The position numbers and the translations under genes are program-made. The notes under the pieces are model-generated. The model was not told the origin of the DNA, did no database searches, and saw only the letters and a list, made by a program, of their open reading frames with translations. DNA of 38,731 nt from Actinomycetota bacterium (lineage in GTDB: Bacteria; Actinomycetota; Actinomycetes; Mycobacteriales; HKI-0501), in NCBI GenBank assembly GCA_030840805.1, contig JAVEDU010000042.1, positions 1 to 38,731 on the forward strand, read 5' to 3'. Each line of letters opens with the position of its first letter. Within the stretch, counting starts at the first letter, position 1. Below are positions 2,354 to 23,070 of this stretch, piece after piece.

Positions 2354-2365
2354 CTCGGCCAGGCA

Positions 2366-2400: not shown

Positions 2401-2402
2401 CC

Positions 2403-2408: not shown

Positions 2409-2415
2409 CGGCCCC

Positions 2416-3069
2416 ATGGACGCCGAGTTTCTCCCTGCAGTCAGGTTCGACGACGACGAAGCCGAGCTCGCGAAGGAGCACTGGGCCGGCATCGGCGTGC
2501 GGCCCTTCTACGGCAAAGCCAAGCCGTGGGCGCGCTTCATGGCCGACCGGGTGCTCGACCACTCCCCCGCGACCGTGCTGGAGTTCGGGTGCAACGTGGG
2601 CCGCAACCTGGCGACGATCCGCGAGCAGGCGCCGGACGTCCGGGTGCGCGGCCTCGACATCAACGCCGACGCGGTGGCCGAGGCGCGGTCGCATCAGCTC
2701 GACGCCGAGGTCGGCGACGAGCGCGCGCTCGGCCGGATCGGCACCGACGAGATCGACGTGAGCTTCACGATCTCCGTGCTCGACCACATCCCCGATCCCC
2801 GTCCGGCGCTGACGGAGCTGCTCCGGGTGAGCCGGCGCGCGGTGCTGTTGCTGGAGCCCTGGATGGGCCGGGAGGGCAAGGTCGTGCGCAACGTCCATCC
2901 GGGCTCGGGCGAGACGGTCGACACGACCCCGTACTCGTACTCGTGGGACTACCCGGAGCTGGCCCGGACGCTCGCCCCCGGGTGGGAGCTGCACGCGGAG
3001 GCGCACCCGCTCGGGCCGACGAACCTCGGCCCGTACTACTGGTTCTACGCCCTCACGCCCCGCCCGTAG
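2416..3069 (+). CDS. Class I SAM-dependent methyltransferase
   Basis: The 217-residue protein has the class I methyltransferase Rossmann core. Motif I reads VLEFGCNVGRN near residues 56-66, the acidic ribose-binding strand reads RGLDINADAV, and the post-II strand DVSFTISVLDHIPDP resembles UbiE/Methyltransf_11 enzymes. The start at 2416 fits a leaderless transcript (TATGAT 7 nt upstream). An in-frame ATG at 2404 overlaps that hexamer and has no ribosome-binding site. The gene stands alone between two strong terminators. Its position between a polysaccharide lyase and glycosyltransferase genes suggests a sugar or lipid substrate, but the sequence does not show which. Confidence 0.85.
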   Translation: MDAEFLPAVRFDDDEAELAKEHWAGIGVRPFYGKAKPWARFMADRVLDHSPATVLEFGCNVGRNLATIREQAPDVRVRGLDINADAVAEARSHQLDAEVGDERALGRIGTDEIDVSFTISVLDHIPDPRPALTELLRVSRRAVLLLEPWMGREGKVVRNVHPGSGETVDTTPYSYSWDYPELARTLAPGWELHAEAHPLGPTNLGPYYWFYALTPRP

Positions 3070-3079
3070 GGCCACAGAC

Positions 3080-3117
3080 GACTCGGGCCCCGCACCGTGA
3101 GGTGCGGGGCCCGAGTC
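3080..3117. terminator. Bidirectional terminator between convergent genes
   Basis: A perfect 17-bp stem (3080-3096 with 3101-3117) closes a GTGA tetraloop. It lies 10 nt after the stop of the plus-strand methyltransferase and 9 nt after the stop of the minus-strand dehydrogenase, so it can end transcription from both sides. Confidence 0.85.
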
Positions 3118-3126
3118 GGTGCGGGA

Positions 3127-4401
3127 TCAGCGCCAGAAGCCCCGCGTGTCGTACACGACCTTGTCGGCGAGCTGGGTGCGCGAGATCGACCCGAACGCGT
3201 CGTGGTCGACGAGCAGCAGCACGATGTCCGCGGCCTCGACGGCCTCGGCGGCGGGGGTCAGCACGACGTTGTCGCGGCCCGCGAGGCGGTCGGGCAGCTT
3301 CTCGACGTGCGGCTCGACCGCATCCAGCGTGACGTCGGGCAGCGCGTCGGCCAGCAGCTCGACGATCTCGATGGCCGGGCTCTCCCGCAGGTCGTCGATG
3401 TTCGCCTTGAACGCGAGGCCCAGGCAGGCGATCCGCGGGTTCTTGAACCGCTCGGCGCGGGCGAGGACCCGCTCGACGACGTGATGCGGCTTGGCGTCGT
3501 TGATCTCACGGGCGGCCCGGATGATCCGCGCCTCCTCGGGCGCGGCCGAGACGATGAACCACGGGTCGACCGCGATGCAGTGGCCGCCGACGCCCGGTCC
3601 GGGCTGGAGGATGTTCACCCGCGGGTGGTGGTTCGCCATCCGGATGAGCTCCCACACGTCCATGCCGAGCTTGTCGCAGATGACCGACAGCTCGTTGGCG
3701 AACGCGATGTTCACGTCGCGGTAGGAGTTCTCGACGAGCTTCGACAACTCGGCGGTCGCCGCGTCGGTGATGATCATCTCGCCCTGGCAGAACACGCGGT
3801 ACAGGTCGGCGGCCAGTTCGGCCACCCCCGGCGTGAGCCCGCCGATGATGCGGTCGTTGGTGACGATCTCGATCATCACGCGGCCCGGCAGCACCCGCTC
3901 GGGGCAGTGGACGAAGCCCACGCCGCGGCCGTCCGCCGCGTCACCGGCCAGGGTGAGGTCGGGACGCAGCTCCCGCACCCAGTCCGCCATCTGACGGGTC
4001 GTCCCGGGCGGGGAGGTGGACTCCAGGATGATGAGCTCGTCGCCGCGCAGCTTCGGCGCGAGCGCCTCGGTGGCCGACCGGATGTACGACAGGTCGGCCT
4101 TGTGACCCTCGGTGAACGGTGTCGGCACCGCGACGATGTAGACGTCGGCCTCGGGCACCTCGGTGGAGGCGCGCAGCCGGCCCTGGGCGACCGCGCCGCT
4201 GACCGCGACGCCGAGGTCGGGCTCCACGAACGGCACCTCGCCCCGGTTCACCGACTCGACGGTGCGGGTGTTGACGTCGACTCCGGTGACGTCGAGGCCG
4301 TTGGTCGCCAGCGCGGCCGCCGTCGGCAACCCGATGTAGCCGAGGCCGATGACGGCGATTCGCTCGAACGTAGGCACGATCTGGTGTGCTCCATCCTTCA
4401 T
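3127..4401 (-). CDS. wecC: UDP-N-acetyl-D-mannosamine dehydrogenase (WecC type)
   Basis: The 424-residue product is a nucleotide-sugar dehydrogenase that would oxidise UDP-ManNAc to UDP-ManNAcA with NAD+. The N-terminal NAD site reads IGLGYIGLPTA (about residues 19-29). STSPPGTT, CPERVLPG and the long helix ELSKLVENSYRD follow. The active-site loop GPGVGGHCIAVDPWF (Cys about 275) is the form typical of WecC rather than of UDP-glucose dehydrogenase. The C-terminal domain has GLAFKANIDDLRESPA. The start is uncertain: ATG at 4401 has no clear ribosome-binding site, while GTG at 4377 has GGAG 11 nt upstream. No WecB-type epimerase is present in the window, so its substrate must come from elsewhere. 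A different UDP-hexosamine substrate is possible. It is last in a minus-strand glycosyltransferase block and probably has its own promoter. Confidence 0.85.
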   Translation of the reverse strand: MKDGAHQIVPTFERIAVIGLGYIGLPTAAALATNGLDVTGVDVNTRTVESVNRGEVPFVEPDLGVAVSGAVAQGRLRASTEVPEADVYIVAVPTPFTEGHKADLSYIRSATEALAPKLRGDELIILESTSPPGTTRQMADWVRELRPDLTLAGDAADGRGVGFVHCPERVLPGRVMIEIVTNDRIIGGLTPGVAELAADLYRVFCQGEMIITDAATAELSKLVENSYRDVNIAFANELSVICDKLGMDVWELIRMANHHPRVNILQPGPGVGGHCIAVDPWFIVSAAPEEARIIRAAREINDAKPHHVVERVLARAERFKNPRIACLGLAFKANIDDLRESPAIEIVELLADALPDVTLDAVEPHVEKLPDRLAGRDNVVLTPAAEAVEAADIVLLLVDHDAFGSISRTQLADKVVYDTRGFWR

Positions 4402-4431
4402 CGGGGCACCGAAACGGCGCGAACCCCACGG

Positions 4432-4437
4432 ATCATA
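4432..4437 (-). promoter_or_regulatory. -10-like TATGAT upstream of the wecC-type gene
   Basis: On the minus strand TATGAT reads 31 nt before the ATG at 4401, giving a short leader. The -35 region is poor. A 7-bp hairpin (4459-4465 with 4472-4478) lies between this element and the upstream glycosyltransferase stop and may end or attenuate read-through from that gene. Confidence 0.35.
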
Positions 4438-4499
4438 GGCGAGGAACGGCCCTGCTGTGCCACGGGTGGAGCCGTGGCGGGTGTGACCGCCGCTACCCG

Positions 4500-6491
4500 T
4501 CAGCGGGCTCCGCGCGCCGTGATCTCGGCGTGGACATCGTCGACGCGGGCCGCGAGCAGGCCCCAGTCCCGCTCGGCCTCGACCCATTTCCGGCCGGCGG
4601 CGCCGAGGCGCCGGCGCAGGCCGGGGTCGCCGAGCAGCGTGCGGAGGACGGTCGTCAGCGCGGCGGCGTCACCCCTGGCGTGGAGGAGGCCCCGGACGCC
4701 GTCGGTGACGACCTCGGTGAGGGCGGGGACGTCGGAGACGACCACCGGCTGGCCCATCGCCATCGCCTCGAACGGCCCGAGCGGCGCGACCAGCTCGGTC
4801 CCCGGCCGGGGCAGGCGGGGGAACGCCGCGATGTCGACGAGCGAGCGGTACCGGAGCAGTTCGCCGTCCCCGACCTCGCCGGTCAGGACGACGAGACCGC
4901 CGAGGGCCTCCGCCCGCGCCGCGAGCTCCGCGTACACCGGCCCGGCGACGAGGACGGTGAAGTCGTCGCGCTCGGCGCGCAGCGTCGCCGCGGCGTCCAG
5001 CAGGAGCTCGAGGCCGTCCTGCTCGACGGCGGGCCCGAGGTGGCCGATCACGGTCCTACCGGTCAGTCCCAGCTCGGCGGCGAGCTCGGTGTCCCGCGGC
5101 CGGGGGGTGAGCCGCGTCGTGTCGGCACCGTTTCCGACCACTGTGATGTGGTCCCTCGGCACCCCGCGGCGGACCAGCTCGTCCCGCAGGGCCTCGGTCG
5201 TGGTGACGACCCGGTCGGCCGCCGCGGCGACGTCCGCCTCCAGCCGGGCACAGACCCGGTAGTGGTCGGTGCCGGCGTAACCGGGCTCACCGGCGGCGCG
5301 GGCGAGCTCCCCCAGCCCGCGGACCTCGTACACGTACGGGATCCCGAGCCGGCGCGCCACGAGCCCGGCGGCGACGCCGTTCCAGTGGTTGCCGGCGGCA
5401 TGCAGGAGCGCGGGCCGTTCCGCGCGGGCCAGCCGCTCCAGCTGCTCGGCGTACCGGTGGACGTAGTCGAACATCGGCAGCTCGCGCGGGAGCGGGGCCA
5501 CCAGCCGCCGGTACGGCACCTCGTCGACGACCTCGGCGGCCGGCGCCTCGTGCTCCGACGGGAAGCCGAGCCGGGTCACGCCGTCGATCGCGCGGCCGCG
5601 CTGCCGCAGGGCCCGCAGCAGCGCGTGGGTGCGCACCGCGTACCCGGAACCGGAGTACGGCAGCGACGTGTGGGTCAGGTACAGCACCCGGCCGGGCTCC
5701 GGCGTGTAGTCCTCGTCCGGGGTCTGCACCGGCCACGGGAAGCCGCCGTCCGCGAGGACGGCCAGGGGATCCCGGCCCCGCAGGAGCATGCGCGTGGCGT
5801 CGTGTTCCCGCCGGGTCCCGTGGGCGAGATCGGCGAACGTCTCGGCGGTCCACCGGTCCCCCGCCGTGCGGAGCCGGTCCGCCTCCCGGCGCAGCGCGGC
5901 CACCGGCAGCACGCCACGGGCCAGCCCGCCGAAGTCGGTGATCCGCTCGAACGCCGCCAGTGCCTCGGCGTGCTGGGCGCGATCGAGTGCCACGGCCGCG
6001 GCCGTGGCGAGCACGGCATCGCGGTACCGCGGCGGCACGGCGTCCGTCACGGCGGCGCGGGCCTCGTCCGGGAGGGCGGCCAGCAGCTCGGCCACCCTGG
6101 CGTGCTGGTTCCAGGAGGCGAGCGCGCCCGCCGCCTCGCCGAGCGCGCCGACGGGCACCCCCGGCCGGCCGATGAGCGCGCCGAGCGTCGCGACGGCCTC
6201 GTCCCGCTCCCCCGCCCGCCGGAGCAGGCGGGCCAGGAGCACGGTCGCCTCCGCGCAGTCCGGGTCGTGCCCGGCGACGCGCCGGGTGAGGTCCAGCGCG
6301 TCGTCGACCCGGCCCGCGGACAGGTACGTCCGGGCCAGCAGGAGGAGGGTCCGCGGATCGGTCGAGGCACCGGCGAACGGCGCCAGCGCCGCGATCGCCG
6401 CCCCGCGCCGCCGCAGCCGCAGGGCCACACCCGCGGCCGTCCGCGCCACCGTCTCCTTGTTGCCGCTCACCGCGCGCACACCGTTCGTCAC
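4500..6491 (-). CDS. TPR-containing family 4 glycosyltransferase, divergent
   Basis: The 663-residue protein has a helical, TPR-like N-terminal part (ARTYLSAGRVDDALDLTRRVA and following repeats, about residues 40-200). A GT-B glycosyltransferase follows, starting near residue 267 (VLYLTHTSLPYSGSGYAVRTH). It matches the two other large glycosyltransferases of this locus along its length, and the subfamily resembles exosortase-associated GT4 enzymes. Several positions conserved in the other two are changed here: VRGLWE is VRGLGE, DYEGLELL is EQDGLELL, GDG is GPV, and SPLKPFEAMA is APLGPFEAMA with the preceding RR and Cys missing. It may use another donor or be a non-catalytic partner. The GTG start overlaps the preceding methyltransferase stop as GTGA, so the two are translationally coupled. 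Confidence 0.85.
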   Translation of the reverse strand: MTNGVRAVSGNKETVARTAAGVALRLRRRGAAIAALAPFAGASTDPRTLLLLARTYLSAGRVDDALDLTRRVAGHDPDCAEATVLLARLLRRAGERDEAVATLGALIGRPGVPVGALGEAAGALASWNQHARVAELLAALPDEARAAVTDAVPPRYRDAVLATAAAVALDRAQHAEALAAFERITDFGGLARGVLPVAALRREADRLRTAGDRWTAETFADLAHGTRREHDATRMLLRGRDPLAVLADGGFPWPVQTPDEDYTPEPGRVLYLTHTSLPYSGSGYAVRTHALLRALRQRGRAIDGVTRLGFPSEHEAPAAEVVDEVPYRRLVAPLPRELPMFDYVHRYAEQLERLARAERPALLHAAGNHWNGVAAGLVARRLGIPYVYEVRGLGELARAAGEPGYAGTDHYRVCARLEADVAAAADRVVTTTEALRDELVRRGVPRDHITVVGNGADTTRLTPRPRDTELAAELGLTGRTVIGHLGPAVEQDGLELLLDAAATLRAERDDFTVLVAGPVYAELAARAEALGGLVVLTGEVGDGELLRYRSLVDIAAFPRLPRPGTELVAPLGPFEAMAMGQPVVVSDVPALTEVVTDGVRGLLHARGDAAALTTVLRTLLGDPGLRRRLGAAGRKWVEAERDWGLLAARVDDVHAEITARGAR

Positions 6492-7327
6492 TGCTCGTCT
6501 CCGTCGTCGGTCCAGTCGAGATGTGCCAGGGCCGGTACGCCGGCGCGCCGCGGTCGGTGTCCGTTGCGGTGGGCAGGGGTGTCGAAGGCCCGCGCGACGC
6601 CCCGCAGGCGGTCCGCCCGGGCCTGGTCCTCCAGCGCGCGCAGGCGGGCCCGCAGCGGGGCGACGGCACGCGCCTCCCGCGCCTCGATCTCGGCACGCTC
6701 GGTGAACGCCTCGAACACGTCCTGCGCCCCGAGGATCAACCGGTCCCGCACCTCCCGGGACATCGGACCGGGATGCGCGATCAGCCTCAGGTAGCCCTCC
6801 TCGACCGACAGGTCGTCGACGGTGAGCCACGGCGCCACGACGTCGAGGCCGGAGGAGAGATAGAAGGTGTGGTGGTGGTCGTGATGGGGGCTGTACCCGA
6901 ACGGCGTGGTGAGGACCAGCCGCCCGTCCGGCCGCAGCACCCGGACGATCTCGCGCAGGACCGCGCCGGGATCCTCCAGGTGCTCGATCACCTCGCCGAG
7001 CAGTGCGGTGTCGACGCTCGCGTCCGGCAGCGGGAAACGCTCGCCGTCCGTGTGCCGGAACGACAGCCGGTCGCGCACCTCGGGCGGCTCGGCGAGCCGG
7101 TCCGCCTCGGCGTACTCGACGCGCGACTCCTCGACGTCGATGCCGACCACGGTGTGCCCCCGGCGGGCCAGCAGGATGGAGGTGATGCCCTGGCTGCACC
7201 CCACGTCGACCACGTCGCCCTCGGCGGCCTCCACGAGCCAGTCGATGCGGCGCCGGGCGCGCTGCTGGCTCGCCGAGGCCCAGATCTCGCCCTTGTAGAC
7301 CTCGGAGATCCGATCGTTGTTCGCCAT
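6488..7327 (-). CDS. SAM-dependent methyltransferase with a helical C-terminal tail
   Basis: The 279-residue protein is a class I methyltransferase of the UbiG/Methyltransf_11 type. Motif I is VVDVGCSQGITS (about 39-50), the acidic residue is in VVGIDVEESRVEYAE, and LLGEVIEHLEDPGAVLREIVRVLRPDG is the typical later block. PFGYSPHHDHHHTFYL is a histidine-rich loop of the kind seen in sugar or small-molecule methyltransferases. After about residue 195 comes a charged helical tail rich in Arg, Glu and Ala that could form a coiled coil. GAGGAG sits about 5 nt before the ATG. It lies 8 nt after one glycosyltransferase and overlaps the next, so the three are one operon. It probably methylates the glycan made by its neighbours. 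Capping of the chain end is a speculation based on context. Confidence 0.85.
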   Translation of the reverse strand: MANNDRISEVYKGEIWASASQQRARRRIDWLVEAAEGDVVDVGCSQGITSILLARRGHTVVGIDVEESRVEYAEADRLAEPPEVRDRLSFRHTDGERFPLPDASVDTALLGEVIEHLEDPGAVLREIVRVLRPDGRLVLTTPFGYSPHHDHHHTFYLSSGLDVVAPWLTVDDLSVEEGYLRLIAHPGPMSREVRDRLILGAQDVFEAFTERAEIEAREARAVAPLRARLRALEDQARADRLRGVARAFDTPAHRNGHRPRRAGVPALAHLDWTDDGDEQ

Positions 7328-7335
7328 GCGACTCC

Positions 7336-9516
7336 TCAGGTCCGGGCGGAGCGGGCTTCCAGCACGTCGGTGTAGATCCGGTCCACGCGGCCGGCCAGCG
7401 CCGTCCAGTCCCGCTCGGCCCGGACCCACTCCAGGCCGCCCTGGGCGACCCGGTCACGCAGGTCGGGGTCGTCGAGCAGCCGGCGCAGCGCGCCGGTCAG
7501 CGACGGCACGTCCCCCTTGGTGTGCACCAGCCCGTTCGCGCCGTCGGTGACGATCTCGGTCAGCGCCGCGACGCTGGAGACCACGACGGCCTTGGCCATG
7601 GCCATGGCCTCGAACGGCTTGAGCGGCGACACCATCTCGCACACCGCCAGTGGCCGGCGGGGGAACGGCGCGATGTCCACCACGGAGTAATACCGCTCGA
7701 CCTGCTCGTGCGGAACCCGGCCGGTGAAGGTGACCACGTCGTCGAGCCCGAGCCGCTTCGCCCGGGCCTTGACCGTGGGGAGCGCGGTGCCGTCGCCCAC
7801 GATGAGGACCGCGAAGTCCTGCCGCTCGGCCTTCAGCGCCGCCGTGGCGTCGATCAGCAGCTCGAGACCCTCGTAGTCGAGGATCGAGCCGACATAGCCG
7901 ATCACGGTCTTCCCGGTCATGCCCAGCTCGGCGGCCAGCCCGGCGTCGCGCGGCAGCGGGGTGAACCGGCTGGTGTCGACACCGTTCGGGACGATGGAGA
8001 TCTTGCCCTCGGGGACCCCGCGGCGGACCATCTCGTCGCGCAGCGCACCGGTGATCGTGATGACCCGGTCCGCCCGCTTCGCCGCGTCCGCCTCCATCCG
8101 GGCCTGGAGGTTGTACCGGCCGCTGCCGACGTACGCGGGCTCACGGGAGCCGCGGGTGACCTCCCACAGGCCGCGGACCTCGTACACGTACGGGATGCCG
8201 AGCCGGCCGGCCACCACCCCGGCGGCGAGCCCGTTCCAGTGGTTGCTGGCGGCGTGCAGGATCGCCGGGCGTTCCGCCCGCGCGAGCCGCTCCAGCCACA
8301 CGGCGTACTTCTGGATGTACGCGACCAGCGAGCTCTTCGGCACCCGGAGCTGCGCGGGGTCGATCAGCCGGCGGTACGGGACACCGTCCACGAGATCGGA
8401 CTCCGGGACGACGAGGGCCGCCGCCTCCTCCTCCGGGTGCTGGTCGTGCGGGAAGCCGAGCCGGGTCACACCGTCGACGAGCCAGCCGGCGCGGCGCAGG
8501 CCCATGAGCAGGCCGTGGGTCCGGGTCGCGTAGCCGGCCGACCGGAGCGGAAGAGAGTTGTGCAGCAGGTACAGCACGCGGCGCGGATCGGTCTCGTACA
8601 CCGGCTCGGGCACCGGCGGGTCGAACGGGTAGCCCGCGCGCAACAGCGTGCGTGCGCCGGGCAGCCCGCCGAGCTCGTCGTCGGGCGAGCGCTCCCAGGC
8701 GAACGCGGCCAGCGCGGTGGACTCGGCCACGAACCCGGCCGCGCCGAGGTGCCGGGCCTGCCGCCGTATCTCGGCGAGCGGGATCAGGCCGTCCGGCAGG
8801 GCCCCGAACGCGGCCACGGCACGCGTCGCATCCCCGACGTCGAGCCAGTACCGCCCCACCACGCCGGCGCGGTCGTGCGCCGACAGCCCGGCGGTCAGCT
8901 CCGTGACGGCCGTCTCGACGTCGTCCGGTGCGGCCTCCGCCCGCTCGTGCAGGGCCACCAGGATGCGGACGGTGCGCAGCTCGTCGCGACCGGCCGGCAC
9001 GGGGTGCGCGTCCAGGACCCGGCGGGCGTCCGCGATGCGGCCGTGCTGGCGGAGCACCGGCAGGACCTCCCGCAGTCGCACGGCCCGCTCGGCGGACACG
9101 CCGACGAGGGCGGCGACGAACCGGTCGAGCACCGGAGCGATCTCGTCCTGCCGGCCCTCGGTCGTGAGGAGCACCAGCAGCAGGTCCAGCGCCGAGGTGG
9201 AGTCCGGCTCGAACTCGAGCACCCGGCCGATCGCGCGGATGGCCTCGTCGTTCTCCTCGGCGCGGTCGAGCAGCCGGGCGAACAGCTCCCAGGTCTCGGG
9301 GTGGGAGCCGAAGCGCAGCGTCGCGGTCTCCAGCAGGTGCCGGGCGCGGTCACGGTCACCGTCGGACAGCGCGAGCCGCGCCTGCGCGCGGAGCCGGGAC
9401 TCCTCGAGGCGGGCTCGATGCGCCGCCGGGAGCGGCAGCGCCGACGTCAGCCCGGCCCGGTCGACCACCCGGAACACCTGGCGGCGGACGCGACGGAACA
9501 TGGACTGCCGGGACAT
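7336..9516 (-). CDS. TPR-containing family 4 glycosyltransferase
   Basis: The 726-residue product begins with about 300 residues of helical, TPR-like repeats (for example ARHLLETATLRFGSHPETWELFARLLD). A GT-B family 4 catalytic part follows from about residue 312 (VLYLLHNSLPLRSAGYATRTHG). Conserved elements are intact: EVRGLWE (about 442), IVPNGVDTSRF, GSILDYEGLELL (about 545), VGDG, TFTGRVPHEQVERYY, and CEMVSPLKPFEAMAMA (about 620-636). It is the intact paralogue of the glycosyltransferase two genes downstream. The ATG at 9516 was chosen over an upstream in-frame start because AGAGGA lies 6 nt before it. It opens the minus-strand operon and faces a divergent third paralogue. A cytoplasmic role in extending a lipid-linked glycan is likely; donor and linkage are unknown. 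Confidence 0.87.
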   Translation of the reverse strand: MSRQSMFRRVRRQVFRVVDRAGLTSALPLPAAHRARLEESRLRAQARLALSDGDRDRARHLLETATLRFGSHPETWELFARLLDRAEENDEAIRAIGRVLEFEPDSTSALDLLLVLLTTEGRQDEIAPVLDRFVAALVGVSAERAVRLREVLPVLRQHGRIADARRVLDAHPVPAGRDELRTVRILVALHERAEAAPDDVETAVTELTAGLSAHDRAGVVGRYWLDVGDATRAVAAFGALPDGLIPLAEIRRQARHLGAAGFVAESTALAAFAWERSPDDELGGLPGARTLLRAGYPFDPPVPEPVYETDPRRVLYLLHNSLPLRSAGYATRTHGLLMGLRRAGWLVDGVTRLGFPHDQHPEEEAAALVVPESDLVDGVPYRRLIDPAQLRVPKSSLVAYIQKYAVWLERLARAERPAILHAASNHWNGLAAGVVAGRLGIPYVYEVRGLWEVTRGSREPAYVGSGRYNLQARMEADAAKRADRVITITGALRDEMVRRGVPEGKISIVPNGVDTSRFTPLPRDAGLAAELGMTGKTVIGYVGSILDYEGLELLIDATAALKAERQDFAVLIVGDGTALPTVKARAKRLGLDDVVTFTGRVPHEQVERYYSVVDIAPFPRRPLAVCEMVSPLKPFEAMAMAKAVVVSSVAALTEIVTDGANGLVHTKGDVPSLTGALRRLLDDPDLRDRVAQGGLEWVRAERDWTALAGRVDRIYTDVLEARSART

Positions 9517-9823
9517 CCGGATCCTCTCTGCGGAGCTGTACCACTCGGGTGGAACCGACCGTAGCCGTCCGCCGGTCGACCCGGGCACGGCGGGCCGTCG
9601 ACGCCGGCCGCCACGGGTGCGGGCCGGGTTCCCGCCGCCGCCTCACGAGGCGGTCGGGCGGGAGTATATGCGGGCGCACCGCCGCGGGGCCGTTCCCGTC
9701 CCTCCGGCGGCCGGCGTTGGCCGTACCCTGGTCGGGGCCCCGGGCGTCACCCGCAGTGACGATCCCGGGGAGAACCGTACGGCCGTGTGCAGACCCGCGG
9801 CCGTCCACCTGACAGGAGTGCGT
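9517..9823. promoter_or_regulatory. Divergent promoter region between two glycosyltransferase operons
   Basis: This 307-nt gap has no gene I can support. On the minus strand TACGGT at 9558-9563 is a -10 candidate that gives a leader of about 35 nt to the gene starting at 9516. On the plus strand TACCCT at 9724-9729 is a -10 candidate about 95 nt before the GTG at 9824. An AT-richer spot GAGTATATG lies at 9662-9670. CCCGGG-centred inverted repeats at about 9738-9770 lie in the plus-strand leader and could fold. All of these are pattern matches without a good -35 box. Confidence 0.35.
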
Positions 9824-11644: not shown

Positions 11645-12534
11645 GCACGACCCGGGTGGAAGCGGCGCCGACCGCGGGGCTCCTCGACGGCATCCCGCCG
11701 GAGGACCTGCGCCGACTGCGAACGGTCGGTACCCGTCCGCCGCTCGGCGAGTACATCGCCGACGTGTGGGCGCACCGCTCGTTCATCTGGGCGCTCGCCG
11801 TGTCCGGTCTGCGGGCCAACAACGGCCGCGACAAGCTGGGCAACTTCTGGCTGGTCCTGTCGCCGGTGATGAACGGCGTCATCTACTTCCTGGTCTTCGG
11901 TGTGATGCTGGGGACAGGTAAGGGTGTGCCGAACTTCATCGGCTTCCTGGTCATCGGCGTGTTCATGTTCACCTACTCGAGCCGGGCCATCGCCCAGGGC
12001 GCGAAGGCGATCACCGGTAACCGGAAGCTGATCCAGACCCTGCGGTTCCCCCGCGCCGTGCTGCCGATGGCCGAGGTCGTCGAGCAGCTGCTCGCGTTCG
12101 GCGTGAGCTTCGTCGCGATGCTTGCGCTGGTGATGGTCGTGCCGCCGTGGGAGGGCGTGACCTGGCGCTGGCTCCTGCTGCTTCCGGCGATTCTCCTGCA
12201 GACCGTGTTCAACGCCGGCCTCGTGATGATCTTCGCCAGGCTGACGTCCCGGATCAGCGACTTCACCAACATCCTGCCGTTCATGCTGCGGGGCTGGCTG
12301 TACCTGTCCGGCATCTTCTACACGGTGGAGCGGTTCGCCCACCACCCGACGCTCAAGCGCATCTTCGAGCTCAACCCGGCGCACGCGTTTCTCACGATCG
12401 CGCGTGACCTGGTCCTGTACCACCGCGTTCCCGACCTGGGCGTCTGGCTGGTCGCGCTCGGGTGGGCCGTCCCGGTCGCGGCCCTGGGCTTCATCCTGTT
12501 CTGGCGCGCCGAGGAGACGTACGCCCGTGACTGA
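11641..12534 (+). CDS. ABC-2 type polysaccharide exporter permease (Wzm/TagG-like)
   Basis: The 297-residue membrane protein has a cytoplasmic N-terminus of about 65 residues and six likely membrane spans: FWLVLSPVMNGVIYFLVFGV, FLVIGVFMFTY, LLAFGVSFVAMLALVMVV, LLLLPAILLQTVFNAGLVMI, LRGWLYLSGIFY and VWLVALGWAVPVAALGFILF. The segment GNRKLIQTLRFPRAVLP followed by FNAGLVMIFARLTSRISDFTNILPFMLRGWLY follows the pattern of Wzm/TagG/RfbA permeases, which export undecaprenyl-linked polysaccharide or teichoic acid. It begins with an ATGA overlap on the glycosyltransferase gene and overlaps the ATPase gene by 8 nt, so the three genes form one operon. Confidence 0.9.
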   Translation: MSTTRVEAAPTAGLLDGIPPEDLRRLRTVGTRPPLGEYIADVWAHRSFIWALAVSGLRANNGRDKLGNFWLVLSPVMNGVIYFLVFGVMLGTGKGVPNFIGFLVIGVFMFTYSSRAIAQGAKAITGNRKLIQTLRFPRAVLPMAEVVEQLLAFGVSFVAMLALVMVVPPWEGVTWRWLLLLPAILLQTVFNAGLVMIFARLTSRISDFTNILPFMLRGWLYLSGIFYTVERFAHHPTLKRIFELNPAHAFLTIARDLVLYHRVPDLGVWLVALGWAVPVAALGFILFWRAEETYARD

Positions 12535-13375
12535 GCACCGCCCCGCCGTGACCGTCGTCGCGGACGACGTCCACGTCGACTATCGCGTCCCGTCCGACGT
12601 CGGGACGAGGGCTCCCGTCGGTGGGGTCGCCAAGGTCCGCCGGATGCTGGGACAGGCCCGCGGCCACGGCCGCCACACCACGGTGTCGGCGCTGCGCGGC
12701 GTCAGCATGGTGGCCCGCGAGGGCGAGTCGATCGGCGTGGTCGGCCGCAACGGCTCCGGCAAGAGCACGTTCCTGCGCACCATCGCGGGGCTGACCGTGC
12801 CGACCCGCGGCCGGGTCCTCGCCGACGGCGTGCCGGTCCTGCTCGGCGTGAGTGCCGCGCTGATGCCGAACCTGTCCGGGCGGCGCAACGTCATCCTCGG
12901 CGGTCTCGCGATGGGCCTGTCCCGCGACGAGGTCGAGGCGAGGTTCGACGAGGTCGTCGAGCTGGCCGGGATCGGCACCGCGATCAACCGGCCGATGCGC
13001 ACGTACTCCTCGGGCATGTCGGCCCGGCTCAGCTTCGCGATCGCGTCCTCGGCGCGGCCGCATGTGCTGCTGATCGACGAGGCGCTGAACACCGGTGACG
13101 TCGAGTTCCGCGACCGCAGCCAGGAGCGGATGGACGAGCTCCGTGCGCATGCCGGAACGGTGTTCCTGGTCAGCCACAGCCTGCCCACGATCGCCGACAT
13201 CTGCACTCGGGTGCTCTGGATCGACAAGGGCCAGCTGCGGGTCGACGGTCCGACCGAGAAGGTCGTCGGCGCCTACCGGGCGTACTTCATGGCTGCCCGC
13301 GCCGAGCGCGAGGCCGGTCGGCCGATGCCCCCGCCTCCGTGGGAGGCCGGCAGCCCGATCCCGCTGCCGGTCTGA
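12527..13375 (+). CDS. ABC exporter ATP-binding protein (Wzt/TagH-like)
   Basis: The 282-residue ATPase pairs with the permease encoded just upstream. Walker A is GRNGSGKST (about 73-81), the ABC signature is YSSGMSARLSFAIA (about 160), Walker B is VLLIDEA (about 180), and the switch histidine is in LVSHSLPT (about 215). About 65 residues precede Walker A, in the style of Wzt/TagH proteins. After the ATPase core there is only a short helical tail ending in a Pro-rich stretch, so the C-terminal carbohydrate-recognition domain of E. coli O9a-type Wzt is absent. Export should therefore not depend on Wzt recognition of a capped chain end. The GTG start overlaps the permease gene by 8 nt. Confidence 0.9.
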   Translation: MTEHRPAVTVVADDVHVDYRVPSDVGTRAPVGGVAKVRRMLGQARGHGRHTTVSALRGVSMVAREGESIGVVGRNGSGKSTFLRTIAGLTVPTRGRVLADGVPVLLGVSAALMPNLSGRRNVILGGLAMGLSRDEVEARFDEVVELAGIGTAINRPMRTYSSGMSARLSFAIASSARPHVLLIDEALNTGDVEFRDRSQERMDELRAHAGTVFLVSHSLPTIADICTRVLWIDKGQLRVDGPTEKVVGAYRAYFMAARAEREAGRPMPPPPWEAGSPIPLPV

Positions 13376-13384
13376 GCAGTCCGG

Positions 13385-14578
13385 TCAGCGCCCGGCGCGT
13401 GGCCGGGTCACCGTGTGGAGCAGGTCCAGGTACCGGTCCGCGAGGCCGTCGAGGTCCGCGTGCTCGGCAACCCACTTCCGGGGCCCCGGGCCGACGTCGA
13501 GGCGCGACCGGTCCACCGCGAGCTCGGCCCACAGCGCGGCCAGCGCGGCCGGGTCCCCGGGCGGGACGACGTCCCCGCCGCCGGCGGCCAGCACGATCTC
13601 CGCCGCCTCGCCCGCCACCGCGGCGCTGACATGGCGCTGCGTGGCGAGTAGCTCGTAGGTCTTGGAGGGCACGGTGAACGTGAACGCCGGCCAGTCCTGC
13701 AGGGATACCAGGCACGTGTCGGCGGCCGCGTACGCGTCCCACAGCGCGGGGCCGGACACCGGCGGCAGCAGCCGGACCGGCGCGCCGAGCCGCTCGGCGG
13801 CCGCGGCGACCTCGCCACGCTCCGCGCCCTCTCCCACCACGGTGAGCCGGACCCGGTCGCCGAGCCGGGCGGCGGCCCGCACGGCGCCGACGAGGTCCTG
13901 GCTGCGCCCGACGGTACCGAGGTAGAGCACCTCCAGCCGGTCCCGCCCGGCGGGCGGCACCGGGCTGGCCGGCACCTCGGCGGTGTGCACGCCGTTGCGG
14001 ATCGTCGCCACCCTGGGCACCCCGCGCCCGGTGAGGATCTCGGTGAACCGCGCCGACGTGGTCACGACGAGGTCGGCGCGCCGCTGTCCGGCGGAGACGA
14101 GCGCGCTGACGGCCCGGCCCACCCGGCCGGTGGCGACCCCGGACTCGCCGATCACGTCCGGCCATGCGTCCCGCATCTCCAGCACGTACGGCGCCCGCAC
14201 GGCCCGCGCCAGGACATGTCCCGCGGCGAGCATCGGGAGCGCGGGCACGGTGGCCAGCACCACGTCGGCACGCCGGCCGGGGCCGGGCAGGACGGCCGCC
14301 GCGGCGGCGACCAGCTGGTCGAGGAGGCGGCGGCCCGTGCCCGGCCCGTACGGCACGTACGGCAGCCGGACGACGGTCTCCCCGTGCCGGCCGGGCGTCG
14401 CGCGCCAGGTCGCGGTGCGGGGACCGGGCAGCCGGTGGCCGAACGGGTAGTGCGGCTGCGGCGCGAGGACGGTCACCTGGTGCCCCGCCGCGACGAAGCG
14501 GCGCACGAACGCCGACCAGCGGCGCTGCGGCGCGCCGATCTCGGGCTCGTAGTTGTGGCTGACCAGCAGGATGCGCAC
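13385..14578 (-). CDS. Family 4 glycosyltransferase (WbuB-like)
   Basis: The 397-residue GT-B enzyme begins MRILLVSHNYEPEIGAPQRR, typical of WbuB-like family 4 transferases. The middle has YVLEMRDAWPDVIGESGV, and RGVPRVATIRNGVHTAEV marks the start of the donor domain. The donor side has LYLGTVGRSQDLVGAV, VGEGAERGE and FTVPSKTYELLATQRHVSAA, where the usual GKxxEYLAxGKPV motif is recognisable. It is unlike the three TPR-type transferases and has no helical extension. The GTG start at 14578 lies 5 nt beyond the stop of the sugar-phosphate transferase gene, with GGAGAG about 9 nt upstream. Being coupled to the initiating transferase, it may add the second sugar to the lipid-linked primer. Confidence 0.87.
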   Translation of the reverse strand: MRILLVSHNYEPEIGAPQRRWSAFVRRFVAAGHQVTVLAPQPHYPFGHRLPGPRTATWRATPGRHGETVVRLPYVPYGPGTGRRLLDQLVAAAAAVLPGPGRRADVVLATVPALPMLAAGHVLARAVRAPYVLEMRDAWPDVIGESGVATGRVGRAVSALVSAGQRRADLVVTTSARFTEILTGRGVPRVATIRNGVHTAEVPASPVPPAGRDRLEVLYLGTVGRSQDLVGAVRAAARLGDRVRLTVVGEGAERGEVAAAAERLGAPVRLLPPVSGPALWDAYAAADTCLVSLQDWPAFTFTVPSKTYELLATQRHVSAAVAGEAAEIVLAAGGGDVVPPGDPAALAALWAELAVDRSRLDVGPGPRKWVAEHADLDGLADRYLDLLHTVTRPRAGR

Positions 14579-14583
14579 GCGGC

Positions 14584-15591
14584 TCAGCTCTCCAGCGCGC
14601 GGTACCGCAGGCGGCGCGCGAGCACGGTCGGCAGCGCGAGGTAGCCGGCCAGCACGACCACGATGAGCGCGTCGCCGATCAGCCGGGCGTTGGGGTCGTC
14701 CAGCAGGCTCATCGCGCCCAGCAGCGTCGTGACCACGGTGAGGCCCGCCACCAGCAGCGCGACGGCCGCGTGGCCGAAGCCGAGATCGGTCAGCCGCTGG
14801 AACACGTGGCTGCGGTGCGGCTGCCGCCAGTCCTCGCCCCGGCTCACCCGGCGGACCAGCGTGCTGCCGGTGTCGGCGAGATAGACCGCCAGCGGCCCGA
14901 GGCACGCCTCGGTGGGCAGCCCGGCCAGGAACGCGCCACCGGAGAGGGCGGCGATCGTCGCGCCGATGCCGTAGCTGCCGACGTCGCCGAGGAAGACCTT
15001 CGCGCGTACCGCGTTGTACGGCAGGAAGCCGAGCGAGGCGCCCGCCAGGCAGGCCCCGACCGCGACGACCCAGGGCTTGTCCGTGTACGCCCCCATGCAG
15101 GCGAACGCGGTGCCGGTCACGATGCCGTGCCAGCCGGTGATGCCGTTGACACCGTCCATGAAGTTGGTCACGTTCACGTACGAGGCGGCCGCGATCGCGC
15201 CCAGCGGGATCCACTCCCACCCGCGGTGGAACAGGACCGTCGCGGGCCAGGTGAGGATCACGCCGAGCACGAGCTGGGCCACCAGGCGGGGCACCGGCTG
15301 CAGGCCACGGAGGTCGTCGGCGAACCCCACCAGCGCGTACAGCACCGCCGCGCCGACCACCACGCCGATCACCAGCCGGTCCTCGGGGCGGCCGAGCGGA
15401 AGGGCCGCGGCGACGAGGATGCCGAGCATCACGGCGACCCCCGCACCGCGCGGGACGGGGGTGGTGTGCGAGGAGCGGACCCCGGGGACGTCCAGCACCC
15501 CGGACCGGCGCAGCAGCGGCAGGATCAGCGGGACGAGGGCCGCGGTCACGGCCAGTGCCGTGAGGGCGCGGACGACGGCCTCCGCGGTCAC
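14584..15591 (-). CDS. Undecaprenyl-phosphate sugar-1-phosphate transferase (WecA/MraY family)
   Basis: The 335-residue protein is a polytopic membrane enzyme of the MraY/WecA family, which moves a sugar-1-phosphate from a UDP-sugar to undecaprenyl phosphate and so starts a lipid-linked glycan. The signature acidic motifs are present: FADDLRGL (about 86-93), NVTNFMDGVNGITG (about 138-151) and KVFLGDVGSYGIG (about 194-206). A late cytoplasmic loop with RRVSRGEDWRQPHRSHVFQRL carries the HxxH-like stretch seen in WecA-type enzymes. The GTG start at 15591 overlaps the CapD-type gene stop as GTGA. The neighbours suggest it primes the wall glycopolymer rather than peptidoglycan; the cell's true MraY would lie in the division cluster. 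Confidence 0.88.
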   Translation of the reverse strand: MTAEAVVRALTALAVTAALVPLILPLLRRSGVLDVPGVRSSHTTPVPRGAGVAVMLGILVAAALPLGRPEDRLVIGVVVGAAVLYALVGFADDLRGLQPVPRLVAQLVLGVILTWPATVLFHRGWEWIPLGAIAAASYVNVTNFMDGVNGITGWHGIVTGTAFACMGAYTDKPWVVAVGACLAGASLGFLPYNAVRAKVFLGDVGSYGIGATIAALSGGAFLAGLPTEACLGPLAVYLADTGSTLVRRVSRGEDWRQPHRSHVFQRLTDLGFGHAAVALLVAGLTVVTTLLGAMSLLDDPNARLIGDALIVVVLAGYLALPTVLARRLRYRALES

Positions 15592-17483
15592 CGCCACGGA
15601 CCGTCCTGCCGGGCCGTCCCGGCGGTCGCGGCCACGGCGGGTTCGGGATCCAGGACGAGGGTCCCGGGCCGGATCGCGCACTCCCGCAGCTGGGCGATCA
15701 CCGTCTCCGCGGGCCCCGTCGGGTCGATCGCGTGCGCGGCGGCCACGTCCAACGGCGGCGCGTCGACGTGGGTGATGAGCGGGTGGACCGGGCGGCGGTC
15801 CACCTCGGCGGCGCCGAGCCGGTCCTCGACGAGCTTCTCCCCCGGCCGCATCCCGGTCACGACCATCTCCACGCGCCGGCCGGCCAGGCCCATGACCCGC
15901 TCGGCCAGCTCGCCCACCGTCACCGGCGCGCCCATGTCGAGCACCAGCACCTCACCGGCGGAGCCGATCGCGCCGGCCTGGACGACCAGCTCGACCGCCT
16001 CGGGGATCGACATGAAGTACCGCGTCGCGCGCGGGTCCGTGACCGTCACCGGGCCTCCCGCCTCGACCTGCTGGGCAAACGTGCCGAGCACCGAACCGCG
16101 ACTGCCGAGCACATTGCCGAACCGTACCGACATATAGGGCAATCCGTGCCGACGGCCCGCCTGCGCCGTGAGCCTTTCCGCGACCCGCTTCGAGTAGCCG
16201 AGGACGCTGACCGGGTCGGCCGCCTTGTCGGTGGAGACGTGGACGAACCGCTCGACGCCGTGCCGGGCGCAGGCGTCCAGCAGGGTCTGGGTGCCCAGGA
16301 CGTTGGTCAGCACGGCCTCGCCCGGGTAGGCCTCCAGCAGCGGGAGGTGCTTGAGCGCCGCCGCGTGGAAAACCACGTCCGGGCGCGAGGTCGCCAGCGC
16401 GGTGTCCATCCGCTTCCCGTCGCGGATGTCGGCCAGCACGACGTTGTCGTCGTCGAGCAGGCCGCGGCCGTCGAGGGACAGCTGGACCGCCTGGAGGGAG
16501 GACTCGTCCCGGTCCAGCATGATCAGCGCCTCGGGCGCGAAGGAGGCGATCTGCCGGCACAGCTCCGACCCGATCGAGCCGCCGGCGCCGGTCACCATCA
16601 CCCGGCGGCCGGTCAGGTATCCGGCGATCCCGGCCATGTCGGTACTGATCTGGTGGCGGCCGATGAGGTCGGCGAGCCGGACGTCCCGCAGCCCGGCCAG
16701 CGCCCCGGTGGAGTCGAACATGTCGCGGGTGGGCGGCAGGACCTTCACCGCCAGCGAGGCGTCCTGGGCGGCGGCGCTCAGCTCCCGTACGAGCGGCGCG
16801 TCGGCGGACGGGACGGCGATCACCAGGAGGTCTGCTCGGGTCCGCGCGGCCACCTCGGCGAGATCGGCCCGGCCGCCGAGCACCCGGACCCCGTCCAGCC
16901 GGAGGAACTTCTTCCGCGGGTGGTCGTCGAGCAGGCCGACCGGCACGAACGCGCGCTGGGCGTCCCGCAGCATCGCCTGGACCACCATCCTCCCGCCGTC
17001 ACCGGCGCCGAAGACCAGCGCCCGGCGGTGGCCCTCCGCGTCGGTGCGGCGGCGGCGGTCGGCGACCCGGCGGTCCAGCCAGCGGAACGCGATCATGAAC
17101 ACGAACGCCAGGGCGGCCGCCACGTACGGCACCGAGCCGGGCAGCGGGCGGCGGCCCGGCGCGAGGAGTACCACGAAGAGCTGGAGGGTCCCGACGCCGA
17201 ACGCCACCGCCGCCAGCGCGGTGAGCTCGTCGTACGACCCGTACCGGTACCGGCCGCGGTAGACCAGCACCCGGCCCAGCAGGAGGTGGAGGACGACGCC
17301 GAGGACGGTCATCCCGACGAGGCCCGCCCGGTGGACGTCCGAGACGGCGAAGTCGTACCGCGCGCCGGCGGCGAGGCACATGGCCGCCACCCACGCGATG
17401 GCGTCCACCACCGGGACGAGTGGTCCAGATCTCAGGTCACCCCACCGCTCGCGTGCGTGCCGTGTGATTCCCTGCGAACTCAC
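15588..17483 (-). CDS. Membrane nucleotide-sugar dehydratase/epimerase (CapD/PglF-type)
   Basis: The 631-residue protein has N-terminal membrane spans (about residues 22-145), then a Rossmann-like domain (VFGAGDGGRMVVQAM, about 154), then an extended SDR domain. The SDR part has VTGAGGSIGSELCRQI (about 292-307), HAAALKHLPLLE and STDKAADPVSVLGYSKRVAE (about 416). This is the arrangement of PglF/WbpM/CapD enzymes that convert UDP-GlcNAc to a 4-keto-6-deoxy sugar. In this family the SDR tyrosine is normally replaced, often by Met; the equivalent position here appears to be Leu, with the lysine kept. The GTG start has GGGGA about 7 nt upstream. It leads a three-gene operon whose next gene starts a lipid-linked glycan, which suggests that the product sugar is used there. 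Confidence 0.88.
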   Translation of the reverse strand: MSSQGITRHARERWGDLRSGPLVPVVDAIAWVAAMCLAAGARYDFAVSDVHRAGLVGMTVLGVVLHLLLGRVLVYRGRYRYGSYDELTALAAVAFGVGTLQLFVVLLAPGRRPLPGSVPYVAAALAFVFMIAFRWLDRRVADRRRRTDAEGHRRALVFGAGDGGRMVVQAMLRDAQRAFVPVGLLDDHPRKKFLRLDGVRVLGGRADLAEVAARTRADLLVIAVPSADAPLVRELSAAAQDASLAVKVLPPTRDMFDSTGALAGLRDVRLADLIGRHQISTDMAGIAGYLTGRRVMVTGAGGSIGSELCRQIASFAPEALIMLDRDESSLQAVQLSLDGRGLLDDDNVVLADIRDGKRMDTALATSRPDVVFHAAALKHLPLLEAYPGEAVLTNVLGTQTLLDACARHGVERFVHVSTDKAADPVSVLGYSKRVAERLTAQAGRRHGLPYMSVRFGNVLGSRGSVLGTFAQQVEAGGPVTVTDPRATRYFMSIPEAVELVVQAGAIGSAGEVLVLDMGAPVTVGELAERVMGLAGRRVEMVVTGMRPGEKLVEDRLGAAEVDRRPVHPLITHVDAPPLDVAAAHAIDPTGPAETVIAQLRECAIRPGTLVLDPEPAVAATAGTARQDGPWR

Positions 17484-17540
17484 TGTCTGATCCCCGTCCT
17501 CATGTGGCCGTCGCGTCCGCCGACTAAGATGTCGGGTTGG

Positions 17541-17550
17541 ATGCTATACA
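17541..17550. promoter_or_regulatory. Overlapping divergent -10 elements for the CapD and LCP units
   Basis: On the plus strand TATACA (17545-17550), preceded by TGC, forms an extended -10 that gives the LCP gene a leader of about 33 nt. On the minus strand TAGCAT (17546-17541) fits TANNNT and gives the CapD-type operon a leader of about 50 nt. The two hexamers share two base pairs, so the promoters could exclude each other. The -35 regions are weak. Confidence 0.4.
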
Positions 17551-17589
17551 AAGGGCCGGGTTCACAGCTGCCGGCAGACGGGATGGTTG

Positions 17590-18849
17590 ATGGTGCGACG
17601 CGGCCCCGCCGGCGACGACGACGGAGCGACGGCCATCTTCCCCCCCGTCGACGGCCCCCGGCGCCCCTCCGACGACGACACCACCGTGCTCCCCGCCTAC
17701 CGGAGTGGCCGCCGCTTTCAGGACGACACGCCGACCGAGGTGATCCCGGCGATCCGGCCGTACACGAACGCGCCGCGCACGTCCGCGACACGCCCGGCGG
17801 CCCGTCAGGTCCTCCCGGGTGAGCCCGGCCGCCGGCGCCATGCCCCGGCGAAGCCCAAGGCGTCCCGCAAGCGCAAGATCTTCCGTACCTTCGCGGTGAT
17901 CCTCGTGCTGGTCCTCGCGGGCGGAGCCGGGGCGGCCTGGGCCCTGCAGGCGCAGCTCAACAGCAACATCGACCGGTTCGGCCTCGGGAAGATCGGTGGC
18001 AACCGGCCGGAGGTCGTGGCTCCGCCGGAGGCCCTCAACATCCTGCTGGTCGGCTCGGACAGCCGGACCTCCCGCGGCAACGCCCGGGAGTGGGTCAAGA
18101 ACGAGCAGCGCACGGACTCGATGATGGTCGTCCACGTGGCGGCCGACCGGAAGTCCGTGGACGTCATCTCGATCCCTCGCGACAGCTGGGTGGACATCCC
18201 CGGCTACGGCTCGGCGAAGATCAACGCGGCCTACGCCGAGGGTGGCCCGCCGCTGCTGATCCAGACGATCGAGCAGCTCACCGGGGTCCGGATCGACCAC
18301 ATGGGCATCGTGGACTTCACCGGGTTCAAGGAGATGACCGACGCCCTGGGCGGCGTGAAGATCACCGTCCCCTCGGCGACCCAGGACAGCCGGAACTTCT
18401 TCCCGGCCGGCACGTACCGGATGAACGGCAAGCAGGCGCTCGGCTACGTGCGTCAGCGGCACGGCCTGCCCAACGGCGACTTCGACCGGATGAAGCGCCA
18501 GCAGAACTGGATCCGGGCGGTCATCAAGGAGGCCATGAGCAAGGGCACCCTGACCGACCCGCTCAAGCTCAACCGGTTCCTCCAGGCGGCCACCAAGGCC
18601 GTGGCGCTCGACGACGGCTGGGGCATCAACGACGTCCGTGGCCTCGCGCTGAGCCTCACCTCGCTCAAGACCACGGACATCCGCTTCATCACCGCCCCGA
18701 ACGTCGGGACGGACTGGGAGGGCGACCAGAGCATCGTCCGGTTGGACGACGTGAAGGGCCCGTCGCTGTGGGCGGCCATCGCCAACGACCAGGTCACCGA
18801 GTGGCTCACGGTGAACAAGCCCGACCTGCTGCAGGCCAAGGTCCGCTGA
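17590..18849 (+). CDS. LytR-CpsA-Psr (LCP) family glycopolymer ligase
   Basis: The 419-residue protein has a long Asp/Arg/Pro-rich cytoplasmic N-terminus (about 95 residues). One membrane span follows (FAVILVLVLAGGAGAAWAL, about 99-117), then an extracellular LCP domain. Typical LCP landmarks are LNILLVGSDSRTSRG (about 148), RTDSMMVVHV (Asp and Arg of the pyrophosphate site), VISIPRDSWVDIPGYG (about 191-206), KINAAYAEGG and YRMNGKQALGYVRQRHGLPNGDFDR. LCP enzymes transfer undecaprenyl-linked glycopolymers to peptidoglycan, or to arabinogalactan acceptors in some actinobacteria. ATG at 17590 was taken with the GGGATGG stretch upstream; a TTG directly before it is less likely. Divergent placement from the lipid-primer operon supports a role in the last step for the same polymer. 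Confidence 0.9.
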   Translation: MVRRGPAGDDDGATAIFPPVDGPRRPSDDDTTVLPAYRSGRRFQDDTPTEVIPAIRPYTNAPRTSATRPAARQVLPGEPGRRRHAPAKPKASRKRKIFRTFAVILVLVLAGGAGAAWALQAQLNSNIDRFGLGKIGGNRPEVVAPPEALNILLVGSDSRTSRGNAREWVKNEQRTDSMMVVHVAADRKSVDVISIPRDSWVDIPGYGSAKINAAYAEGGPPLLIQTIEQLTGVRIDHMGIVDFTGFKEMTDALGGVKITVPSATQDSRNFFPAGTYRMNGKQALGYVRQRHGLPNGDFDRMKRQQNWIRAVIKEAMSKGTLTDPLKLNRFLQAATKAVALDDGWGINDVRGLALSLTSLKTTDIRFITAPNVGTDWEGDQSIVRLDDVKGPSLWAAIANDQVTEWLTVNKPDLLQAKVR

Positions 18850-18856
18850 CCCGGAC

Positions 18857-19512
18857 TCAGCCGGCGGCGAGACCGCCGAGGTACGCGAGGTCGACCCCCA
18901 CCAGCGACTCCCGGACGGTGCGCAGCGGCCCCGCCGGGACCGGCACCTCGCTCGGCACCGCCAGCACCGCGCAGCCCGCCGCCTCGGCGGCCGCGATCCC
19001 GGTCGGGGAGTCCTCGATCGCCACGCACTCCGACGGGTCGACGCCGAGGAGGGCCGCGGCGGTGAGGTACGCCTCCGGGTGCGGCTTGTTGTGCTCCACC
19101 TCGTCGCCGCACACGGCCACGTCGAAGTAGTGCGCCCCGATCGAGCGCAGGGCCACCTCGACGAGGTCGCGGTGCGTCGAGGTCACCAGCGCGGTCGGCA
19201 GCCCCGCGGCGTGGACCGCGTCCAGCAGTTCCCGGGCACCGGGCCGCCACGGCAGGCCGCGGTCGAAGTAGTGCTTCGTGCGGTCCAGCAGCCAGCGTCC
19301 GTCCCCGTCGAGGTCTCCCCCGGTGATCCCCAGGTCGTCGTGGAGCAGCCGGAGCGAGGACACCAGGTTCGACCCCACCATGGCCTGGCGGGTCGGCGCG
19401 CTGAGCGCACCACCCAGCCGGGCCGCGAGCTCGTCCAGCGTGACGTCCCAGATCTTCTCGCTGTCGACCAGCGTGCCGTCCATGTCGAACAGCACGGCCG
19501 CCACCGGGCGGC

Positions 19513-19516: not shown

Positions 19517-23064
<3,548 letters not shown>

Positions 23065-23070
23065 GGTGCA

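Follow-up and report, generated by a model that had tools for sequence, protein, structure and literature searches.

The window analyzed here is one whole contig (C66, 38,731 nucleotides; JAVEDU010000042.1) of a 4.46-Mb actinobacterial draft genome (GCA_030840805.1) that consists of 111 contigs. The genes located between positions 314 and 18849 probably encode the pathway for a teichuronic-acid-type polymer containing N-acetylmannosaminuronic acid (ManNAcA), which would be assembled on a lipid carrier, exported by an ATP-binding cassette (ABC) transporter and attached by a LytR-CpsA-Psr (LCP) transferase. An earlier note on this DNA had named a WecC dehydrogenase, four glycosyltransferases of family 4 (GT4), a methyltransferase, a Wzm/Wzt exporter, a WecA/MraY-like transferase, a CapD/PglF dehydratase and an LCP protein. 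All of them are present, with a high GC content at the third codon position in the called frame and matches to their families, although two genes at the left-hand end were not in that list: the heparinase-fold lyase gene hep and a second methyltransferase gene, mt1.

The arrangement in divergent units described in that note is also found. There are two divergent starts, gtB|gtC (151 bp apart) and capD|lcp (103 bp apart), and inside the blocks the genes overlap or lie less than 100 bp from their neighbor. Neither Rfam nor tRNA searches matched anything in the window, and consensus scans for promoters and terminators over positions 1-19600 found none.

Regarding the uronic acid, wecC (3127-4401, minus strand) encodes a UDP-N-acetylmannosamine dehydrogenase, which makes UDP-ManNAcA. 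The protein passes the NCBIfam equivalog model PRK11064 (588 bits, cut-off 459), its best match in the Protein Data Bank (PDB) is Cap5O and its GPGVGGHC motif is intact; the start of the gene is uncertain, as the longest open reading frame extends to 4587 and an ATG lies at 4401. A UDP-N-acetylglucosamine (UDP-GlcNAc) 2-epimerase is needed as well because it feeds WecC, and the genome encodes one outside the window, so that the dedicated uronic acid supply of a teichuronic acid pathway is available to the cell.

The capD gene (15588-17483, minus strand; PF02719, Polysacc_synt_2, 321 bits) encodes a membrane-bound UDP-N-acetylhexosamine (UDP-HexNAc) 4,6-dehydratase of the PglF/WbpM type, with WlaL as its best PDB match and an intact STDK motif. 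It carries a leucine instead of methionine beside this motif, and the idea of a broken enzyme was ruled out since leucine is present in all seven other CapD proteins inspected, including a copy on contig C62 of the same genome. The gene overlaps by 10 bp with the wecA-like gene (14584-15597, minus strand; PF00953, 100 bits), one of three PF00953 genes in the draft genome, which encodes a polyprenyl-phosphate sugar-1-phosphate transferase that would lay down the primer. A reading of this protein as a true WecA (UDP-GlcNAc:undecaprenyl-phosphate transferase) was rejected, as it reaches 57.9 bits with the ECA_wecA model, whose cut-off is 326; because this score is so far under the cut-off, the primer sugar is not fixed by the family. 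Of the ManNAcA-like and 6-deoxy sugars proposed in the earlier note, the first therefore stands on a WecC above its cut-off, and the second is only partly supported, by the presence of CapD, with no gene finishing the CapD product into a sugar among the annotated genes. A further polysaccharide locus is found on contig C62 (L044, L045); besides the CapD copy (51% identical to that of the window), it contains a PF00953 transferase, two LCP genes and a distant WecC-like dehydrogenase (35% identity).

The four GT4 enzymes are encoded by gtA (4500-6491, minus strand; PF13579, PF13692, TPR_19), gtB (7336-9516, minus strand; PF13692, TPR_19), gtC (9668-11644, plus strand; PF13692, 111 bits; start uncertain, perhaps at ~9818-9824) and the WcaI-like gtD (13385-14578, minus strand; PF13579, 53.6 bits; NF007640, 100 bits, under its cut-off of 276). 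The description of these transferases as bearing tetratricopeptide repeats (TPR) is right by Pfam for two of the four, gtA and gtB, and not for gtC and gtD. However, the AlphaFold2 (AF2) model of gtC (pLDDT 83.9, pTM 0.84) has a helical repeat of about 11 helices (residues 66-231) ahead of its GT-B fold. The matches listed in a structure search with gtC were only GT-B-like, and the repeat domain was left without a named match. From this model, an N-terminal part made of helical repeats may be common to GT4 enzymes of this kind; among 14 members scanned, the three of the window included, TPR_19 was found in four and TIGR04063 in all 14. These TIGR04063 matches recall the XrtA/PEP-CTERM exopolysaccharide systems, although gtA, gtB and gtC differ from them in scoring 254-334 bits (gtA, 254), all under the cut-off of 442. 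A relative of gtB with 50% identity is present in the syntenic locus of genome G012. In other loci (L159, L161, L165 and L176), proteins of ~700-750 amino acids, resembling membrane acyltransferases as judged from N-terminal sequence only, are found near gtA/gtB-type transferases. Two class I S-adenosylmethionine-dependent methyltransferases complete this part of the cluster: mt2 (6488-7327, minus strand; PF08241, 81.5 bits), with a 4-bp overlap with gtA, and mt1 (2404-3069, plus strand; PF08242, 40 bits).

The genes wzm (11641-12534, plus strand; PF01061, 50.3 bits) and wzt (12527-13375, plus strand; PF00005, 74.3 bits) are adjacent and overlapping, and encode an ABC-2 type polysaccharide export permease and a 282-amino-acid export ATPase, as in ABC-transporter-dependent polysaccharide export. 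It is the only Wzm/Wzt pair seen in the window. The ATPase scores 157.8 bits with a TagH-like model, under the cut-off of 320. Mycobacterial galactan is also a lipid-linked chain with a two-component ABC export (Wzm/Wzt) and LCP attachment; nevertheless, a reading of the window pair as the galactan exporter fails, since the permease and the ATPase fall under the cut-offs of the NF050109/NF050108 models (63 vs 380 and 167 vs 400 bits, respectively).

Conservation and gene order were computed directly, like family membership, using a class sample of 394 genomes, 80 named gtC loci (the best 80 of at least 595 pattern matches) and 20 WecC-anchored loci. The latter come from Kocuria marina's family, where 80 of 149 genomes bear a close WecC, and were chosen for small genome (12) or high score (8). 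Genes in both sets of loci were counted by all-frame BLAST with the window proteins and the WecB of the same genome; around WecC up to 20 kb were read, so that these counts are minimum values and more distant genes are unseen. Some profile searches of relatives used profiles built partly from those very loci and are circular there.

Around WecC, gtC was found in 18 of the 20 loci, gtD in 15, LCP and Wzt in 13 each, Wzm in 12, a gtB-like best hit in eight and WecB in six. The 80 named loci, for which gtC was the selection, contained WecC (63), Wzt (23), Wzm (22), gtD (21), LCP (16), CapD (4), WecA (4) and hep (1). As many as 56 of the WecC hits in named loci are only 31-40% identical, and many such loci belong to Streptosporangiales or Streptomyces and have no exporter. 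On the other hand, the eight named loci with a close WecC (58-66%), from Arthrobacter, Pseudarthrobacter, Kocuria and Intrasporangium, all contain Wzm, Wzt, gtC and gtD, and six of them LCP. Both Wzm and Wzt are present in 20 named loci, of which 18 have gtD, 11 LCP, eight a close WecC and four CapD together with WecA. It can also be observed that gtC-type transferases adjoin two classes of WecC-like proteins, close (58-66% identical to that of the window) and distant (31-40%), and therefore the relatives of gtC probably serve more than one uronic acid.

Two gene orders recur. LCP-gtD-gtC-wzm-wzt-wecC is found in Arthrobacter and Kocuria, and in Intrasporangium with wecC reversed, whereas the same-strand run capD-wecA-gtD-gtC-wzm-wzt is found in Phycicoccus (L136) and Brevibacterium (L139, L141 and L151), with no WecC within the stretch read in these four loci. 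Genome G364 carries this second run with WecB, and wecC lies ~21 kb further on. Furthermore, G012 has a syntenic cluster (gtD 41%, WecC 69%, gtC 54%, Wzm 43%, Wzt 54% and LCP 48% identity) that also includes WecB, two hep-type genes, gtA-like and gtB-like transferases and a methyltransferase, and G019 has LCP, gtD, gtC, Wzm, Wzt and WecC (61%). At the thresholds set for the class sample, the gtC model (E 1e-40) matched 68 of the 394 genomes, gtA/gtB-type hits counted in, the hep model 73, the close WecC 16 and Wzm 108. gtC, WecC and Wzm coincide in five genomes (the window's own, G282, G364, G425 and G426), two of which also have hep (the window's own and G282). A search for the gene set across actinobacterial genomes had been asked for in the earlier note, and its outcome is that the core recurs in Micrococcaceae, Phycicoccus, Brevibacterium and Intrasporangium; no exact match to a characterized cluster was found among the clusters compared.

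Genome G572, a single contig of 2,501,097 bp with 75% GC in the stretch read, is presumably that of Micrococcus luteus NCTC 2665. Its homologues of the window genes (LCP 36%, gtD 46.5%, WecC 62%, gtC 45%, Wzm 46% and Wzt 50% identity), together with a wecB product 68% identical to the epimerase of the window's genome, lie within 24 kb (positions 961450 to 985405). The order is lcp, gtD, a gene for a 731-amino-acid GT4, wecC, gtC and WbpA/D/E/B-like genes, and wzt, wzm and wecB are also present. If the name is right, the linked WecC, GT4, exporter and LCP homologues of the window are those of a M. luteus-type pathway. The full gene set is not the same, since the window adds capD, wecA, hep, gtA and gtB, whereas G572 has its own dehydrogenase, hexapeptide acetyltransferase, DegT aminotransferase and GFO/IDH oxidoreductase (the WbpA/D/E/B-like genes) and the 731-amino-acid GT4. 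The earlier note knew of no described polymer with this gene set, which is too strong a statement: the core exists in Micrococcaceae, including the presumed M. luteus, and a ManNAcA-glucose polymer of M. luteus is described (PMC3005890).

The wall teichuronic acid of M. luteus is [->4)ManNAcA-(1->6)Glc]n, it is joined to peptidoglycan via a GlcNAc-containing oligosaccharide linker and phosphate, and its synthesis in vitro requires UDP-GlcNAc, UDP-ManNAcA and UDP-Glc (PMC3005890). The G572 cluster is consistent with this chemistry. No gene assignment for this polymer was found in the literature searched, composed largely of papers open without subscription and including the accessible part of PMC3005890. 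Directly 3' of gtC, G572 (C1; L240:12513-16630) carries the WbpA-, WbpD-, WbpE- and WbpB-like genes, whose sequences suggest a diacetamido-uronic acid, though the polymer described contains only ManNAcA and glucose.

The lcp gene (17587-18849, plus strand; PF03816, 164.5 bits) encodes an LCP glycopolymer transferase in which six strings that we take to be the LCP motifs were found, as expected for an LCP domain with acidic and arginine motifs. In a tree of 32 rows, computed directly from the proteins, it falls in a clade (97/97) with six LCP rows of five gtC loci (L104, L116, L148, L149 and L152; Promicromonosporaceae and Cellulomonadaceae). The four LCP paralogues of the same genome are all outside, two of them on long branches, and the LCPs of WecC-bearing Micrococcaceae form a separate clade. 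This grouping links the window LCP with clusters of the gtC-gtD type, and not with ManNAcA in particular; two of the five loci show no Wzm/Wzt. The position of the LCP also bears on whether the chain is attached at all, since it could be a capsule or a free exopolysaccharide exported by Wzm/Wzt, with no covalent link to peptidoglycan, while the LCP serves another polymer. Such a product seems unlikely, as 13 of the 20 WecC-anchored loci and 11 of the 20 named Wzm/Wzt loci have an LCP next to the core, and the LCP of the window groups with LCPs beside gtC genes instead of its own paralogues. However, the other nine named Wzm/Wzt loci have no LCP in the stretch read, those four paralogues are available in the genome, the nearest relatives of gtA, gtB and gtC are the TIGR04063 GT4s, named for exosortase-linked systems, and a lyase could serve the release of a loose polymer.

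The lyase gene hep (314-2353, plus strand; PF07940, 42.7 bits; PF16889, 27.8 bits) encodes a heparinase II/III-fold polysaccharide lyase of 679 amino acids, whose sequence matches heparinase III (HepIII) in the PDB. The AF2 model of residues 111-679 (pLDDT 87) matches the folds of HepIII 4mmi (E 3e-30) and of 4fnv (E 5e-26, TMq 0.80). In the alignment, Tyr and one His are present in all nine rows and Asn in seven, with gaps in the other two; Asn, Tyr and His are, we assume, the catalytic residues of HepIII, so that both the fold and these residues agree with a heparinase II/III lyase. As judged by eye, the N-terminus is signal-peptide-like and is followed by a Pro/Thr-rich linker, and the product is probably secreted; the two relatives in G012 have no signal-like start in the gene calls. 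Physical linkage of hep and gtC was found in three of the 31 genomes with both besides the window's own (p ~0.01, a rough random-placement model that makes this weak evidence), which is no more than suggestive. Genome co-occurrence (32 with both, out of 68 with gtC and 73 with hep among 394; p ~1e-9) was left unused, being confounded by shared ancestry. Moreover, a possible further lyase-bearing ManNAcA locus is L220 (G235:C1:382000-401999), in an 8.7-Mb actinobacterial genome, where WecB and WecC lie close to a distant hep-type gene and a weak gtC-type match.

Several observations weigh against a single ManNAcA polymer pathway made by all these genes. The only UDP-GlcNAc 2-epimerase found in the genome (WecB) is unlinked, on contig C74, and no gene for the finishing step after CapD was seen, as indicated above. 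The CapD on C62 is nearer to the window CapD (51%) than that of L136 is (46%). Only seven of the 16 class genomes with a close WecC have a gtC match, a close WecC is absent from the stretch read at the five loci with the nearest LCPs, and only four of the 68 gtC-matching class genomes (the window's own, G090, G227 and G282), plus G012, have a hep relative within ~20 kb of gtC. Besides, none of the 80 named loci combines a close WecC (present in 8) with CapD-WecA (present in 4), the ~57 kb read at the G572 locus contain no match to CapD or WecA, and outside the window the linkage of WecC with CapD-WecA was seen only in G364. The window therefore combines two forms of the cluster that mostly occur apart in other genomes. 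This, with the separate transcription blocks, would also fit two polymers made side by side, one by capD-wecA and the other by wecC-gtA-mt2-gtB, with gtC, gtD, the exporter and LCP shared or divided. Such a division is quite unlikely in our view, because capD-wecA-gtD-gtC-wzm-wzt forms one same-strand run in L136, L139, L141, L151 and G364, the last with wecC ~21 kb on, and only one Wzm/Wzt pair is seen in the window.

Among other wall polymers, that of the Bacillus subtilis tua genes is a uronic-acid polymer made on a lipid carrier. It differs in using the UDP-glucose dehydrogenase TuaD, a flippase and a polymerase, and the window dehydrogenase reaches 169 bits against the TuaD cut-off of 700. 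The Streptomyces utr polymer belongs to an actinobacterial wall and contains a ManNAc-type uronic acid; it is a ManNAc3NAcA-GalNAc chain that TarS/TarM-like enzymes build on wall teichoic acid (PMC13274773). This precedent would allow the window genes to decorate another wall polymer, a lipoglycan or a glycoprotein, instead of making a free-standing wall chain. We regard decoration as very improbable, since the utr genes described there are a different set, with TarS/TarM-like transferases and an aminotransferase and oxidase pair (PMC13274773), and the window contains the primer enzyme, ABC exporter and LCP that are parts of a self-standing polymer.

Concerning the rest of the window, lcp is followed on its 3' side by genes for a HAD phosphatase and then MetH. 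Positions 22793-26512 hold ordinary actinobacterial genes (a PAC2-family protein, an MFS transporter and the mycothiol ligase MshC), and at 31963-35562 a NasC-like molybdopterin oxidoreductase adjoins a NarK-family transporter, both under their model cut-offs.

Considering these data, the acidic, ABC-exported and LCP-attached ManNAcA polymer of the earlier note remains the best reading and now has comparative evidence behind it; we infer its sugar composition and wall linkage, as well as the order of transfer and the substrate of the lyase, from the gene set. In the pathway proposed, the WecA-like enzyme would load undecaprenyl phosphate with a HexNAc-1-phosphate, for which the neighboring CapD may supply the precursor. 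The gtD enzyme would probably add to this primer, and gtC, gtB and gtA, with their N-terminal helical repeats, would extend the chain with ManNAcA, supplied by WecC and the unlinked 2-epimerase that feeds it, and with other sugars. Then mt2 or mt1 could O-methylate or cap the chain, Wzm/Wzt would export it and the LCP protein would transfer it to peptidoglycan. The hep lyase, encoded near WecC, would probably cut this uronic-acid chain, either to turn it over or to release it.

The core of this pathway is already found elsewhere, and what is new in the window is the union of WecC, CapD-WecA, duplicated TPR-GT4s, methyltransferases and the lyase. A more specific version, which we put forward only tentatively and consider doubtful, is that CapD feeds the WecA-like enzyme, so that the primer of the teichuronic acid would be 6-deoxy-HexNAc and not GlcNAc; the repeat-domain GT4s would act as a complex in elongation, and hep would trim the chain extracellularly. 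If that were true, the cell would be able to shed, in a controlled way, a polymer bound covalently to its wall. The chemistry of actinobacterial teichuronic acids is known, and gene candidates now come from a core that extends across Micrococcaceae and reaches the genome of the window; WecC, gtC, gtD, Wzm/Wzt and LCP are thus concrete candidates for the teichuronic acid genes of M. luteus. Furthermore, the linked lyase could be a tool for cutting such walls and a test of wall-polymer remodelling by beta-elimination.

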